From the NCBI RefSeq assembly GCF_000715495.1, contig NZ_JNLX01000149.1:62001-126000 (forward strand): a stretch of 64,000 bases of DNA, in the 5' to 3' direction. The DNA comes from Hymenobacter sp. IS2118. Lineage in GTDB: Bacteria; Bacteroidota; Bacteroidia; Cytophagales; Hymenobacteraceae. The notes under the pieces were generated by a model. It saw only the letters and a program-made list of their open reading frames with translations, was not told where the DNA came from and did not search any database. Below are positions 5,364-61,216 of the stretch, piece by piece (positions within the stretch are counted from its first letter, which is position 1; every line of letters starts with the position of its first letter). The translations under genes and the position numbers were made by a program.

Positions 5364-6134
5364 ATGCCCATGCCTGCTACCTACGCCTCCCCGGCCGCCG
5401 AAAAGGCCCGCGCCGACCACGAAATTCTGAACGCCTTCTATGGGCCCGTGCCCAAGGCGCCCCGCCGCACGCCCATGCGCGAGCTGATTTCCACCGTGCT
5501 CTCGCACCGCACCACCCACGCCGACGAGGAGCTGGCCTACGACCGCATGCTGGCCGCTTTTGGCGACTGGCCGGGCGTGCTGGCCGCCCCCACGGCGGCC
5601 CTGGCTCAGGCCATCCGTACCACGCGCTGGCCCGATACCCAGGCGCCGCGCATTCAGGAGATTCTGCGGCGCATTGCGGCCGAAACCGGCGGAGCTTTCG
5701 AGTTGGACTTTTTGGCTGAGTGGCCGCTGGACCGCGCCATGACCTGGCTCATCGACATGCCCGGCATTGGCTTGAAAACGGCTTCGCTGCTGCTGCTTTT
5801 CAACTTTCGTAAGCCCGTGCTGCCCGTTGATGCGCACGTGCACCGGGTAGCGCAGCGGGTGGGCTTCCTGGGGCCCAAGGTGTCGGTCGAAAAAGCCCAC
5901 GCTGTGTTGCCGCCCCTGCTGCCCGCCGATGCCGAAGCGTTGTTCAACTTCCACAAGCACAACTACTGGCACGGCCAGCAAATCTGCTTCTTCCAGCGCC
6001 CCAACTGCCCGCGCTGCCCGCTAAAAGGATTCTGCAATTATTACCAGGAACACTACGGCGCCGCCACGGCCGAGGTCCTGGCCGCCACCCCCGCCCAATG
6101 GGACCCCGCCGCCTGGGGCCAGCTGCCGCATTAA
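5364..6134 (+). CDS. endonuclease III-family DNA glycosylase
   Basis: A 256-residue HhH-GPD protein of base-excision repair. The helix-hairpin-helix MPGIGLKTASLLLLF (about 132-146) carries the Lys expected of bifunctional glycosylase/AP lyases, and VDAHVHRV supplies the catalytic Asp. The C-terminal [4Fe-4S] loop is complete with the standard spacing C-x6-C-x2-C-x5-C (CFFQRPNCPRCPLKGFC). The sequence is not closest to classical Nth (for example THADEELAYDRM in place of TTD...N), so it may be a subfamily with another damage preference. It starts 27 bases after the phosphatase gene and may be co-transcribed with it. Confidence 0.85.
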   Translation: MPMPATYASPAAEKARADHEILNAFYGPVPKAPRRTPMRELISTVLSHRTTHADEELAYDRMLAAFGDWPGVLAAPTAALAQAIRTTRWPDTQAPRIQEILRRIAAETGGAFELDFLAEWPLDRAMTWLIDMPGIGLKTASLLLLFNFRKPVLPVDAHVHRVAQRVGFLGPKVSVEKAHAVLPPLLPADAEALFNFHKHNYWHGQQICFFQRPNCPRCPLKGFCNYYQEHYGAATAEVLAATPAQWDPAAWGQLPH

Positions 6135-6137
6135 GGT

Positions 6138-6243
6138 TTAGCTGTCAGCCTTTAGCTATTAGCTGTTAGCTTCGTTATAATCGCCAACCTTCGTTCCAAA
6201 GGGAAAAAAGCTAATGGCTAACAGCTATAGGCTATTAGCTTAA
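6138..6243. repeat. inverted pair of heptanucleotide arrays (TTAGCTN)
   Basis: Five contiguous 7-base units of consensus TTAGCTN occupy 6138-6172. Five units of the complementary type (AGCTNNN/GGCTANN) occupy 6209-6243. The arms can pair over about 35 bases, and the right arm ends five bases before the radical SAM start codon. Confidence 0.8.
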
Positions 6244-6248
6244 AAAAA

Positions 6249-7232
6249 ATGCGCCTCGTCAAGCATCCCGTCCTCTGTAATTACTACGTCACGTACCGCT
6301 GCAATGCGAAGTGCGCGTTTTGTGATATTTGGGAGAAACCCTCGCCCTATATCACGCTGGACGACGTGACGCAGAACTTGCGCGACCTGAAGCGCCTGGG
6401 CGTGTCGGTGCTTGACTTTACCGGCGGCGAACCGCTGCTGCACCGGCAGCTGCCCGAGTTTCTGGCCCTGGCCCGCCAGATGGGCTTCATCACCACCGTC
6501 ACCACCAACGGCCTGCTTTACCCCAAAAACGCGGAAAAGCTGCGCGGGCTGGTCGATATGCTGCACTTTTCGCTCGACTCGGCCGACCGCGACACCCACG
6601 ACCTGGGCCGGGGCGTGGCCTGCTACGATTTCGTGCTCGAAAGCATCCGCGTGGCCAAGGAGTTGGGCGAGCGGCCGGACATCCTTTTCACCGTGTTCCG
6701 CAAAAACCTGGCGGACCTGGAGGCCGTGTACCGCGACATCACCCAGCCCAACAACCTGGTCCTCATCCTGAACCCAGCCTTCGAGTACGGCGATGTGGAA
6801 ACCGGCGAGCAGCTCACGCCCGAGGAGCTGGACTACCTCTCCGCTTTCGGCAAGCGGAAGGGCGTGTACCTCAACGAAGCCTTCATTCAGCTGCGGCGCG
6901 ACGGCGGCAACCACGTGGCCGCGCCGGTGTGCCGGGCCGCCAGCACCACGCTGGTCATCTCGCCCAGCAACGAGCTGGTGCTGCCCTGCTATCACTTGGG
7001 CGAGCAGAAATTCCCCATCGAAGGCAAGTTGTTTGACCTCTACAATGCGCCCGAAACTCAGCGCCTGGCTGCCCTGGAAGGCCGCCTGCCCGCCTGCGAG
7101 GGCTGCACCATCAACTGCTACATGCAGCCCAGCTTCGCCGTCGAAACCAGCAAGTACTTCTGGCAAGCCCTGCCCAGTACGCTGAAATACAACTGGGAAA
7201 AAGGCACGTGGAAACGATTGCTTGTGCGGTAA
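6249..7232 (+). CDS. radical SAM protein with SPASM-like C-terminus
   Basis: A 327-residue radical S-adenosylmethionine enzyme. The cluster-binding motif C18-x3-C22-x2-C25 (CNAKCAFC) is followed by the SAM-binding FTGGEPLL (about 56-63). The C-terminal third has further cysteines (PVCRAA, LPCYHL, CEGCTINC) that resemble a SPASM/twitch auxiliary-cluster domain as in peptide-modifying or cofactor maturases. No small peptide substrate gene is adjacent, so the substrate is unknown. The last codons and the stop lie inside the left arm of a 24-bp palindrome, so the C-terminal residues may have been altered by repeat insertion. Confidence 0.8.
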   Translation: MRLVKHPVLCNYYVTYRCNAKCAFCDIWEKPSPYITLDDVTQNLRDLKRLGVSVLDFTGGEPLLHRQLPEFLALARQMGFITTVTTNGLLYPKNAEKLRGLVDMLHFSLDSADRDTHDLGRGVACYDFVLESIRVAKELGERPDILFTVFRKNLADLEAVYRDITQPNNLVLILNPAFEYGDVETGEQLTPEELDYLSAFGKRKGVYLNEAFIQLRRDGGNHVAAPVCRAASTTLVISPSNELVLPCYHLGEQKFPIEGKLFDLYNAPETQRLAALEGRLPACEGCTINCYMQPSFAVETSKYFWQALPSTLKYNWEKGTWKRLLVR

Positions 7233-9780: not shown

Positions 9781-10317
9781 ATGAAAACCTACTACCTCCT
9801 CCCCCTGGCCGCCGCCCTACTGGGCCTGAGCCAGTGCAAGAAGAAGGACCCCTCCCCCGAGGCGCAACTGCCCCCCGCCACCCAGACCGGGGCCAATACC
9901 ATTGGCTGCCTCGTTAACGGCCAGCCGTGGACCCCCGTCGGAAACGATGGCTCGTCCAATTACACCGTCTCCTATGACCCCAACTTTCGACTCGGTACTC
10001 TAAATATAGCGGCGTACCGCTACGCCAATAGCCAAGCCAAGCGGCAAACAATTGGTGTTTTCTCGGACAGTTTACTGCCCGGAATTGGTCGGTATAAGCT
10101 TCGTCTGTTAGGACACCACGGGGCTGCATTTGACGATTTTCAAGGTAATTGCATTTACGATAGGACTAGTCCCGGCGCGTATTGTCGTGGGGAGTTAGTC
10201 ATCACGCGGCTGGACCGTGTAAACGGCATCATCTCGGGCACGTTCGCCTTCACGCTAGCCCAGCCCGGCTGCGACACGGTGCGCGTTACCAACGGCCGCT
10301 TCGATAAGCGTCTCTAG
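9781..10317 (+). CDS. small lipoprotein, paralogue of the gene at 8941
   Basis: A 178-residue lipoprotein (lipobox LGLSQC) almost identical to the 8941 product at the N-terminus (QCKKKDPSPEAQLPPATQT), in the middle block (YTVSYDPNFRLGTLNIAAYR) and at the C-terminus (GCDTVRVTNGRFDKRL). The segment between about residues 88 and 133 differs strongly, while its cysteines are kept. This mosaic suggests duplication followed by gene conversion or by replacement of the variable segment. The TM2 gene starts eight bases downstream, so the two probably form an operon. Function unknown. Confidence 0.75.
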   Translation: MKTYYLLPLAAALLGLSQCKKKDPSPEAQLPPATQTGANTIGCLVNGQPWTPVGNDGSSNYTVSYDPNFRLGTLNIAAYRYANSQAKRQTIGVFSDSLLPGIGRYKLRLLGHHGAAFDDFQGNCIYDRTSPGAYCRGELVITRLDRVNGIISGTFAFTLAQPGCDTVRVTNGRFDKRL

Positions 10318-27133: not shown

Positions 27134-27455
27134 GGCTGGGATAGGAGAATTCGTGCTATCCGGGGCTAGAAAGCAGGTTTTGTGTTGCCCGCCACCGAGG
27201 CAGCGCACAAAAAACAGCGGGAAGCTGCCACAGCCAAAGGCCAGTTCGTGTACAACGCGGTTGAGCTTGACAAGTTCGGCCACGAAGGTAGCACGGTGGC
27301 GGGTGGTACTGGTGAAGCAGTGAAAAAGACAGTGCTCAGGGAATCAGGCACCAGGGATTGGGGGTTTGGGAATGCCCGCCAGCCGGGGGTATCTTTACTA
27401 AAACCAGCCACTGGTAATTAGTAATTAATAATTACTAATTATTAATTAATGAAAT
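27134..27455. other. divergent intergenic region, no gene seen
   Basis: The gap between the desaturase and dnaE genes has short open frames on both strands but no recognisable protein. Its right end is the TAATTAN heptad array at 27415-27449. Confidence 0.5.
27415..27449. repeat. five perfect TAATTAN heptads before dnaE
   Basis: Five contiguous 7-base units, each TAATTA plus one variable base (G, A, C, T, A), end six bases before the dnaE ATG. The unit is nearly self-complementary, so the array can pair with itself. Confidence 0.9.
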
Positions 27456-42889: not shown

Positions 42890-42894
42890 AGTTA

Positions 42895-42964
42895 TTTAGC
42901 TGCAAGCTACAAGCCTTCAAAAGGTAAGAGCTTGCAGCTTGCAGCTGACAGCTTGCAGCTAAAA
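42895..42964. repeat. GCTTGCA heptad array with inverted partner
   Basis: Three left units (42895-42915) and five right units of consensus GCTTGCA (42930-42964). The outermost 14 bases of each side are exact reverse complements. It ends one base before the glycosyltransferase ATG. Confidence 0.9.
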
Positions 42965-42965
42965 A

Positions 42966-44768: not shown

Positions 44769-44787
44769 TCCAACCGTTCCGGCTAGC

Positions 44788-44837
44788 GGCAGCAAAAAGG
44801 CGTCCCCAATCTTGGTTGGGGACGCCTTTTTGCTGCC
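44788..44837 (+). terminator. 22-bp perfect terminator hairpin
   Basis: Arms 44788-44809 and 44816-44837 are exact reverse complements with a six-base loop; internal A5 and T5 tracts. It can act for both the lipoprotein gene and the convergent serS. Confidence 0.85.
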
Positions 44838-44850
44838 TGTACGTGGCGCT

Positions 44851-44920
44851 GTCAGTTGCTGGTTGTCTATTCTAGTTTTTCGGTCTCAAGTTCAACCCTG
44901 ACAACCCACAACCATCAACT
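44851..44920. repeat. heptad array pair (GTCAGTT / CAACNNN type)
   Basis: Four 7-base units on the left (44851-44878) and three complementary-type units on the right (44900-44920), in the gap between the convergent lipoprotein and serS genes. Confidence 0.65.
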
Positions 44921-44932
44921 AAAAAAAATATT

Positions 44933-46653: not shown

Positions 46654-48888
46654 ATGCACACCATTAACGAGTTGAAGGACCGGCTGCTGTCCGACCTGAA
46701 AGAAATTGCCGAGCAGATGAATGTCGGCAACTTTAAACGGCTCAGCAAGCAGGATTTGATTTACAAAATCCTCGACCAGCAAGCCCTCATTCCGGGTGCC
46801 GCCGACCAGCCTGCCCCCGCGGCTGCTCCGGCCGCCGTGGCCGAAGCCCCTGCGGCGACCGCTGCCGCACCCCGCGCACCCAAAGCCCGCCGCCCGGCCC
46901 CCAGCACCGCCGAACAGCCTTTTTCGGACGTAGCCCCGCCCGCTGCCAAAACCGCCCGCCCCGCGCGGGAGCCCCGCCGCGAGTCCGAGCCCGCCGCCAA
47001 CGTCGAAATTCTGGACCCCATCGAAGGCCTGGCCCTGGTGCCCGCCTCGGAAGCTACCGGCGCCTCCCTGGCCAACGAGCCCGTGCCAGTAGTGGCCCCG
47101 CAGGCCAACGAAGAAGCTGGCCCCAGCGCCGACCAACAGATTAACGGCACCGAGCAGCAGGACGCCAACGCCGCCCGCCCCGAGCGCCGCGAGCGCCGCG
47201 AGCGCCGCGAGCGGGTAGACCGCGCCGGCCGCCCCATCACGGAGCAGCGCGCCGCCGAGATGGCCGCCGAAAAAGCCGCCGCCGAAATTGCCGCCGCCGC
47301 CGAAGCTGCCAACGCGCCCTTGGAGAACGGCAATGATGGCCGTGATGGCCGCCGCGAACCCGGTGGGAGTGGCTTTGGCGACCGCCGCGAAAACCGCGCC
47401 GACCGCTTCGAGCGCGACAACCGCGAGCCGCGTGACGGCCGCGAGCAGCGCTTTCCGCGCAACGACCAGCCCCGTGAAAACCGCGAGCCCCGCAACGACC
47501 AACCCCGGGAGCAGCGTGAGCCTCGCAACGACCAACCCCGCGAAAACCGGGAAGGCCAGCCCCGCGAGCCGCGCAACGACCAGCCCCGCAATGGCCAGGA
47601 GCGCGATAATAACCGCAACCTGACCCGCGAGGAGCGCTACGCCCAGCGCGACCTACAGCGCCAACAGCGCGCCCTCAACCCCGATGGCACGCCCCGCACC
47701 GACCAGCCCCAGCGCGAGCCGCGCGAACCCCAGCCGCAGCGCGAGCCCCAGCGCCCCGCCCGGCAGGACCTGGACCTGGTGGTGCCCGGCGGCGGCACCT
47801 TTGAGTTGATGCCCGACGGTGGCTACGGCTTCCTGCGCTCGCCCTACTACAACTACCTCTCCTCGCCCGACGACATTTACGTGTCGCCGCAGCAGGTGAA
47901 GCAATACGCCATGAAGCCCGGCGACACGGTGATTTGCACCATTCGCCCGCCGCGCGAAGGCGAAAAATACTTTGCCCTGGTGGGTGTGGACAGCATGAAC
48001 GGCCGCACCGTGGAGGAAGTCCGCGACCGGGTGCCGTTCAGCCACCTCACCCCGCTTTTTGCCGACCAGCGCATGAAGCTGAGCACCAAGTCCAGCCAAA
48101 TCAGCACCCGCGTGCTTGACTTGTTTGCCCCCATCGGCAAAGGCCAGCGCGGCCTGATTGTGGCCCAGCCCAAAACCGGTAAAACCGTGCTGCTGCAGGA
48201 AGTAGCCAACGCCATTTCCGAGAACCACCCCGAGGTGTATCTGATGATACTGCTCATCGACGAACGCCCCGAGGAAGTGACCGATATGGCCCGCACCGTG
48301 AAGGCCGAAGTGCTCAGCTCGACCTTCGACGAAACGGCCGACCGCCACGTGAAAATCGCCGAAATGGCTCTCGACAAGGCGCGTCGCCTCGTGGAGTGTG
48401 GCCACGACGTGGTCATTCTGCTCGACTCCATTACCCGCCTGGCGCGGGCTTACAACACGGTGCAGCCCAGCTCCTCGCGCATCCTTTCGGGTGGTATCGA
48501 TGCGGGCGCCCTGCAAAAGCCCAAGCGCTTTTTCGGTGCGGCCCGCAACGTGGAAGGCGGCGGCTCACTCACTATCATTGCCACCGCTCTCATCGAAACT
48601 GGCTCCAAAATGGACGAGGTTATCTTCGAGGAATTCAAAGGCACCGGCAACATGGAACTGCAGCTGGACCGCAAGCTGGCCAACAAGCGCGTATTCCCGG
48701 CCATCGACATCCCGGCTTCCGGCACCCGCCGCGAAGACCTGCTCATGAGCAAGGACGAGCTGAGCCGCGTGTGGGTACTGCGCAAGTTCATGTCGGACAT
48801 GACGGCCACCGAGGCCATGGAATTCCTGAAGGACCGCATCAAAGGCACTAAGGATAACGAGGAATTCCTCATCTCCATGAACGGCTAA
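46654..48888 (+). CDS. rho: transcription termination factor Rho with long disordered insert
   Basis: A 744-residue RNA-dependent ATPase, far longer than the 419 residues of E. coli Rho. The N-terminal helix bundle ([12 protein letters not shown]...[14 protein letters not shown], 1-38) is separated from the cold-shock-like RNA-binding domain (from about 372, [15 protein letters not shown]) by about 330 residues of Pro/Ala/Glu/Arg/Asn/Gln-rich, low-complexity sequence with imperfect repeats of the [11 protein letters not shown] type. The Walker A (AQPKTGKT, about 505), Walker B ([16 protein letters not shown]) and Q/R-loop regions are normal. In Bacteroides thetaiotaomicron a comparable Rho insert drives phase separation; the same is likely here. 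Confidence 0.95.
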
Positions 48889-56561: not shown

Positions 56562-56671
56562 TTGTCAGTTGCTAGTTGTCCGTTGTTGGTCAGGTAGTTA
56601 AATCTAATCAACTGATAATAGGCAACCAGCAACCGATAACCGACAACCAGCAACCGACAACTAACAACCAC
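56558..56671. repeat. heptad array pair (NNAGTTG / CAACNNN) joining a stop and a start codon
   Basis: Four left units of consensus NNNGTTG (56558-56585), the first overlapping the DUF4173 stop codon, and nine contiguous right units of consensus CAACNNN (56609-56671) that end exactly at the ATG of the next gene. The arms are complementary in type. Confidence 0.9.
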
Positions 56672-61138: not shown

Positions 61139-61145
61139 GTCATCA

Positions 61146-61211
61146 GTCGCTGGTTGTTAGTACTGAGTCCATCTACTGACTAACAATGGACAACGAGCAA
61201 CTGACAACCAG
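61146..61211. repeat. CAACNNN heptad array pair between convergent genes
   Basis: Left units of the GTNNNTN type (about 61146-61173) and four right units of the CAANNNN type (61184-61211), the same family as the arrays at 44851 and 56558. Confidence 0.6.
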
Positions 61212-61216
61212 CTTGC

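Follow-up and report, generated by a model that had tools for sequence, protein, structure and literature searches.

Inverted arrays of 7-nt units in the gene gaps of Hymenobacter often pair as hairpins, with one unit type in both arms. These heptad hairpins keep a period of seven, lie mostly between co-directional genes in a preferred orientation, and are present, absent or replaced time and again in orthologous gaps; the upkeep of their stems carries no RNA-strand signal. In our opinion there is a roughly even chance (about 0.5) that they are products of DNA replication in dispensable gaps, arising by slippage and arm-to-arm template switching, without an encoded mobile body. Slippage and quasi-palindrome template switching are established replication errors. 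A heptad hairpin would then be a quasi-palindrome with a single degenerate 7-nt unit repeated in tandem along both arms. Slippage would extend the arrays in 7-nt steps, template switching between the arms would make the arms and match them again, and the hairpins would survive wherever they overwrite nothing vital, chiefly in co-directional gaps, their G-poor orientation turned towards the start codon. We infer this mechanism of birth, and near-neutrality with it.

The window, a stretch of 64,000 nt from Hymenobacter sp. IS2118, belongs to a genome of 5.26 Mb in 198 contigs (G000 below). Its gap 6135-6248, the home gap in what follows, is a hairpin of TTAGCTN units with arms of 36 nt each (best ungapped stem) and a loop of 35 nt (Table 1). 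The first-pass annotation of this DNA had noticed five TTAGCTN units that face five inverted ones and end 5 nt before the radical SAM ATG, and the sequence confirms this: the stop side reads TTAGCTG, TCAGCCT, TTAGCTA, TTAGCTG, TTAGCTT and the start side AAGCTAA, TGGCTAA, CAGCTAT, AGGCTAT, TAGCTTA. What it had missed is that the inverted arrays pair as a hairpin and that the arms have a unit in common. In 21 gaps of G000 an arm has a similarity of 14.4 to its own partner and of 6.9 to arms of other gaps; 19 gaps of genome G016 give 15.5 and 6.0. None of 2000 permutations was as high in either of the two genomes, and the own partner was the best match in 9 of the 21 and 8 of the 19 gaps. At the lenient threshold of this arm scan, a single array stands in 53 gaps of G000 and in 37 of G016.

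Table 1. Heptad arrays of the window and the genes flanking the home hairpin
Feature	Position	Strand	Remark
Upstream gene, HhH-GPD superfamily base excision repair protein (PF00730)	5364..6134	+	domain match
Home hairpin, 5' (stop-proximal) arm, TTAGCTN units	6137..6172	+	starts 2 nt past the HhH-GPD stop codon
Home hairpin, loop, 35 nt	6173..6207		
Home hairpin, 3' (start-proximal) arm, inverted copy	6208..6243	+	ends 5 nt short of the ATG at 6249
Downstream gene, radical SAM protein (PF04055)	6249..7232	+	domain match
Single unpaired AATTAGT-type array	27414..27448	+	divergent gap; 7 nt before called start of DNA polymerase III alpha gene
CAAGCTN-type inverted pair, 17-nt arms, 15-nt loop	42898..42946	+	gap between PHP/HHH-domain gene and glycosyltransferase 9 gene
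GTTGNNN-type inverted arrays	44850..44921		convergent gap, beside a terminator-like hairpin; by eye
GTTGTCA-type inverted pair, 29-nt arms, 41-nt loop	56562..56660	+	
GTTGNNN-type inverted arrays	61140..61212		convergent gap; by eye

The period-7 design had also been said to recur at five other sites of the window. Period-7 arrays are indeed present at all of them, as inverted pairs at 42890, 44850, 56562 and 61140 (those at 44850 and 61140 judged by eye), but 27414-27448 holds one unpaired array only. Co-directional gene gaps hold the pairs at 42890-42965 and 56562-56671, whose start-side arrays extend to 42960 and 56670, respectively. Two further observations concern the window itself. In the convergent gap 44769-44932 a terminator-like hairpin and a heptad inverted pair adjoin each other, and at 47169-47589 longer tandem repeats, of 9 to 33 nt, lie clustered in what may be a repetitive coding region.

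We scanned 576 gene gaps of at least 20 nt, taken from 824 kb of G000 (about 16% of the genome) with home-made gene calls. At a lag score of at least 10, period 7 was found in 29 gaps, period 14 in 29 and period 21 in 20, versus 1-7 gaps for the other periods from 3 to 13 (period 8: 7). The excess of period 7 over other periods, which the first-pass annotation had expected of a tandem-repeat search, is thus there in the gene gaps of these 824 kb. When the whole G000 sequence read is scored, genes included, the contrast is weak at a score of at least 12, since periods 7, 14 and 21 (18, 25 and 16 places) are accompanied by period 6 (17) and period 3 (16); at a score of at least 15 the counts are 8, 9 and 7, and 0-3 for the other periods up to 30. 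Among the 1708 scored gaps of G000 and 80 related loci, period 7 reaches a score of at least 9 in 63, versus 4-15 for each of the other periods from 4 to 13. The pattern of three TTAGCTN units with up to 1 mismatch has 59 matches in G000, and the reversed pattern has 0; elsewhere the reversed pattern is matched 3 times in G020 and once in G028 (relatives set), and in five genomes of the phylum set. Chance or composition as the cause is ruled out by the reversed-pattern control in G000, by the other periods and by shuffled stems. Period 8 forms a smaller, separate class in gaps. Period-8 arrays of GGTGAAAT, AGGGTAGG and GAGTGACT types occur in L031-L070 and L151-L190, for example at G016 C1 262608-262643.

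Our pooled data comprise 2260 gaps from G000, the 80 loci, G016 and G008. In 868 gap hairpins of score at least 13, arms with at least 60% lag-7 identity were found in 76, and periods 3-6 and 8-13 account for 1-12 each. Our working set is 81 gap hairpins (stem at least 12, period-7 arm identity at least 0.58), a number in which these thresholds leave a few false members (e.g. G016C1 69853 and G016C2 91679) and orthologous loci are counted more than once. Of the 1524 co-directional gaps 72 have such a hairpin, compared with 6 among 358 convergent and 3 among 378 divergent ones, an enrichment in co-directional gaps versus the rest with p 9e-6. The near-neutral reading fits the patchy occurrence of the hairpins and their rarity in divergent gaps, because divergent gaps should carry promoters. 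The 72 co-directional hairpins have a median distance of 3 nt to the stop codon and 11.5 nt to the start, a median loop of 35.5 nt and a median stem of 28 nt; 57 of them begin within 8 nt of the stop codon, versus 99 of 577 non-heptad hairpins. TTAGCTN, GTTGTCA, CAAGCTN, AATTAGT and TATGAGT are found among the units, together with others, and the units vary inside the individual arrays that were read. By eye one notices a unit pattern of about YNRRYTN; about 44% of random heptamers contain RRYY at some position.

The arrays have an orientation. On the sense strand, arrays near starts have more C than G in 66 cases and more G than C in 6, with 5 ties. Near stops of co-directional gaps G exceeds C in 36 versus 10 (3 ties), and in convergent gaps in 13 versus 9 (10 to 5 at a stricter threshold). 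Accordingly oriented, the 5' arms of heptad hairpins have G over C in 63 versus 13 (3 to 3 in convergent gaps), the opposite polarity to terminator-like hairpins, in which the counts are 80 versus 362. Because gene starts are G-poor overall (C 0.338 and G 0.173 in the last 25 nt), the polarity of heptad hairpins can come from the context of the start. A polarity independent of genes may not be needed for heptads, the stop skew in convergent gaps being only 13 to 9. Period-8 arrays near starts have C over G in 24 of 24, the same orientation as the heptad arrays, and near stops in convergent gaps period-8 arrays are skewed 8 to 1, which the G-poor start context does not explain.

The skew near starts would also be expected if the start-proximal array were a functional G-poor translation leader, as proposed for the TAACTGA repeats of Beggiatoaceae, and the stop-proximal arm its by-product. 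In several relatives, judged by eye, the start-side array indeed stands alone, directly before the ATG. On the other hand, the general G-poverty of gene starts means that the orientation may reflect tolerance only, and there are orthologous genes without an array; we consider a leader function very improbable. At L071 10988-11184 and L086 10985-11144 a GTCATGCTGAGC element directly adjoins a GCTCACT or GCTCATT heptad array, which is one-sided and lies next to the ATG that follows.

Alternatively, the heptad hairpins could be regulatory or stability hairpins of RNA (terminators, exonuclease barriers, translational coupling elements) under selection on the transcript. Their position between co-directional genes and close to stop codons would suit this, and the home hairpin folds well as RNA (-38.9 kcal/mol, z -4.15, a fold equalled by 0 of 200 shuffles; as DNA z -3.44, equalled by 1 of 200). 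A helix that is kept as RNA should tolerate G.U above A.C, whereas in one kept as DNA the two should be equal by strand symmetry. Stem mismatches on the mRNA strand of the 72 co-directional heptad hairpins are 91 G.U and 79 A.C (p 0.40), though weak selection on an already very long stem could escape this comparison. By source the ratios are 33:37 in G000, 14:8 in G016, 8:5 in G008 and 36:29 in the loci; the home gap alone gives 28:21, and 63:58 is left without it (53 hairpins). The positive control, which pools 312 terminator-like hairpins of co-directional gaps from several genomes, gives 177:35 (p 5e-24); in G000 by itself the non-heptad hairpins together give 91:71 (p 0.135). The heptad and terminator-like ratios differ with p 3e-10. 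Since G.U and A.C are about equal in the heptad stems and far apart in the terminator-like ones, no RNA-level selection is visible. Long non-heptad inverted repeats likewise have no G.U excess (248:243).

Further points speak against selection on the transcript: the 5' arm has the polarity opposite to that of terminator-like hairpins, the home 3' arm is followed by A-rich sequence and not by a U run, hairpin presence differs freely between species, and heptad hairpins are rare in convergent gaps, where other hairpins abound (268 of 358). The heptad hairpins do not look like intrinsic terminators, as the G.U excess and the A/C-rich 5' arm of terminator-like hairpins in the same data are both absent. 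A known RNA family is ruled out, the window having no Rfam match at gathering score; this includes group I introns, the setting of the trnL P6b heptad stem discussed below. Given all this, we think a role in the transcript unlikely, in spite of compensated changes in some pairs and of arms that are better conserved than the loops.

The comparison of arms bears on that last point. An alignment of 8 sequences from the home gap (first group) has 86.6% of its cells paired, with two-sided changes in 9 pairs and a covariation of 0.212 versus 0.176 in shuffled alignments, a value as high being reached in 9 of 500 shuffles. In a second group of four species 12 of 30 pairs vary, namely 3 with two-sided compensated changes, 8 with one-sided changes and 1 with a gap. 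Compensation between arms is modest. Distances between arms were taken from in-register columns. In the second group the distance within a hairpin is 0.076, versus 0.144 (left arm) and 0.102 (right arm) between species, and the difference holds in 6 of 6 species pairs. In the first group without its two MAGs the values are 0.128 within versus 0.144 (left) and 0.185 (right) between, holding in 12 of 15 species pairs. With the MAGs they are 0.178 versus 0.225 and 0.185, so that over all 8 sequences the right-arm distance between species nearly equals that within a hairpin; between exceeds within in 22 of 28 pairs for the inner helix and 19 of 28 for both helices. Loop divergence, 0.47 in the first group versus 0.21 in the second, exceeds that of the arms, a difference that selection would bring about as well. 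In our opinion the arm distances favour, without proving, a correction of one arm by the other. The first-pass annotation had suggested replication slippage or active copying; the parity of G.U and A.C and the matching of arms do point to copying at the DNA level, while for the birth of the hairpins such a mechanism is only what we infer.

How the home gap changes was followed in 80 related loci and the window, of which 78 have the repair gene upstream (L131, L145 and L146 were dropped). A script sorted the 78 orthologous gaps into 21 with a heptad hairpin, 25 with another inverted repeat, 16 without a long inverted repeat and 16 of more than 330 nt. The 21 heptad hairpins are built from at least four unit types, among them TTAGCTN, AAGCTTN, TCGTTTTT-like and TAGTGAC. 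Of the other inverted repeats, a permissive motif rule assigns 14 to the GTAGCGCGGACT type, although L082 and L123 differ in appearance and the scores of L083 and L097 stay below 13.5; 4 are of GTCATGC type, 4 of GGTAAGCTTTAGCTTGCC type and 3 of other types. Inverted-repeat families of GTAGCGCGGACTTTTAGTCCGCG, GGTAAGCTTTAGCTTGCC and GTCATGCTGAGCGCAGTCGAAGCATCTC lie in the home gap of L074, L075, L078, L084, L085 and others, just upstream of position 10001. Decayed heptad hairpins were seen in L142 and L117, the former being counted among the 16 without a long inverted repeat. The best named matches of the radical SAM protein are from Hymenobacter, with 99% identity to H. lapidarius; in H. lapidarius and H. 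glacialis, the nearest by protein, the home gap has no heptad hairpin. Eight TTAGCT-type hairpins of the home gap can be aligned. They share descent, because their pairing register is kept in 7 of 8 and the loop start TTCG is invariant, and since it stays in register across 7 of 8 aligned species the home hairpin is not merely transient. What recurs is the gap and not the unit.

Other gaps were compared in the same spirit. For 42890-42965, 29 of 30 fetched loci were compared by eye (L239 dropped). Four genomes have gaps of 1, 1, 4 and 9 nt there, and six have heptad hairpins of three unit types: the hairpin is common to the IS2118 genome and G055, its nearest relative by DNA, L235 has CAAGCTT, L229 TTAGCTG, and L241 and L248 have AGTTGCC units. 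The rest show other repeats or plain gaps. At 56562-56671 the heptad pair is absent from the four best-matching genomes, in which plain gaps of 23-40 nt lead to the aligned start, and L209, L210 and L212 have TTAGCT hairpins in this position (all by eye). For some gene pairs heptad-free gaps are as long as heptad-bearing ones, so simple insertion into short gaps is ruled out as the whole story, and replacement of the gap sequence is also possible. In G000 (contig C148) the orthologue of the gap at G016 C1 229929-230059 has facing ATCAGCG-based units with a spacing of about 9 nt, and two relatives have TTAGCT heptads there. The earlier idea that the unit drifts while the period is kept is borne out by several unit types at a fixed period, but it is only part of the story: in one and the same gap, species differ by unit family, by another inverted repeat, or by having nothing.

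Nor is the family this genome's own, as had been supposed; its sharing had been overlooked. With up to 1 mismatch the TTAGCT unit is found in 11 of the 28 genomes that make up the relatives set besides IS2118 (12 of 29 when IS2118 is counted), with counts from 0 to 123, and the exact unit in 13 of 296 genomes across the phylum (IS2118 included), from 12 of 139 genera. Three TTAGCTN units with one mismatch give 123 matches in G016, 107 in G020 (from another family), 86 in G008, 59 in G000 and 42 in G004, and 0 in 8 of the 19 genus genomes searched.

Unit families common to many species, a load that is patchy between species, presence or absence between the stop and start of orthologous gaps, and other inverted-repeat families in the same gaps could all be explained by tiny non-autonomous mobile elements, the inverted ends of which would be iterated putative binding sites for some protein that moves them. 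Such elements would be expected to have a common body, and here the loops are locus-specific. Among the 74 of 81 hairpins with loops of at least 15 nt only 4 pairs are similar, 3 of them orthologous; the start of the home loop is common to the orthologous hairpins of 7 other loci, and the home loop has no match among the other heptad loops compared in the IS2118 genome. The units also vary within arrays. A transposon with a common body (MITE-like) is ruled out, as loops are not shared between loci, and so are RAYT / REP elements, since loops differ between loci and Y1_Tnp, the REP transposase family, does not track the array load: G008, despite its 86 matches, has no Y1_Tnp match. Hence we regard mobile elements as an improbable explanation, and prefer the origin by replication errors.

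Heptads have been described before. Heterocystous cyanobacteria have tandem heptanucleotides known as STRR, the STRR2 unit being TTGTCAG; this unit is present at 56562-56568. The cyanobacterial likeness drawn by the first-pass annotation is apt, but the inverted GGGAATC arrays of Xanthomonas come closer, and they are the closest described case that we found. According to the paper on these arrays (Rehm et al. 2015, PMC4692102), which also mentions three heptanucleotides of Calothrix, about 90% are intergenic, with 7-nt units; 65-70% lie between co-directional and 7-8% between divergent genes, the average distance being 28 nt to the upstream gene and 160 nt to the downstream one. Array length and sequence differ between near relatives, and two genomes have 70 and 75 inverted pairs in convergent orientation, which we read as the G-rich arm first; the arrays were studied for G-quadruplexes. 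As in Xanthomonas, heptad tandem units and inverted array pairs lie in gene gaps here. Unlike Xanthomonas, with its one G-tract family, Hymenobacter has several other families, the unit is matched within a hairpin, and the arms lie near stop and start; the G-tract unit GGGANTN is not among the units read here.

In Nostoc, the P6b stem of the trnL(UAA) group I intron is made of one heptad motif, TDNGATT or NNTGAGT, one unit class having replaced the other repeatedly and independently, with 7-nt units gained or lost (Kaasalainen et al. 2015, PMC4476775). That is a single site within an intron, whereas the heptad stems of Hymenobacter are spread over many gaps that separate protein genes. Sporadic arrays of TAACTGA just ahead of start codons were reported from Beggiatoaceae, Cyanobacteria and five Bacteroidetes; they are described as direct repeats, inverted only once in the main genome, and a role as binding sites is proposed (MacGregor 2015, PMC4679880). 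The start-proximal arrays described here resemble them in having one orientation close before start codons, and TCAGTTA, the reverse complement of TAACTGA, is like units seen here; perfect TAACTGA direct repeats are not among the window arrays read. Polymerase slippage has been proposed for bacterial heptads in work cited by PMC4679880 and PMC4692102. Among the matches listed in the open-licence literature there is no description of such hairpins in Hymenobacter, the TAACTGA paper covering direct heptads in some Bacteroidetes. As a new variant, then, we report many unit families in one genus, hairpins hugging stop and start, and evidence for upkeep at the DNA level.

It is tempting to go further and to regard period-7 hairpins as a general, transposase-free class of DNA elements, born from replication repeatedly and with many units, their arms matched by copying, so that this class would take in the heptads of Cyanobacteria, Xanthomonas, Beggiatoaceae and Bacteroidota alike, and the polymerase would be the reason for the number 7. 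This generalization is, in our view, tentative and rather doubtful. The preference of bacterial genomes for 7-nt repeats has been a puzzle for a long time. The series of 78 loci indicates how often a gap between two conserved neighbours gets rewritten, and locus-specific loops, filled and empty orthologous gaps, and the mismatch comparison of DNA against RNA make the heptad question testable in culturable Hymenobacter.
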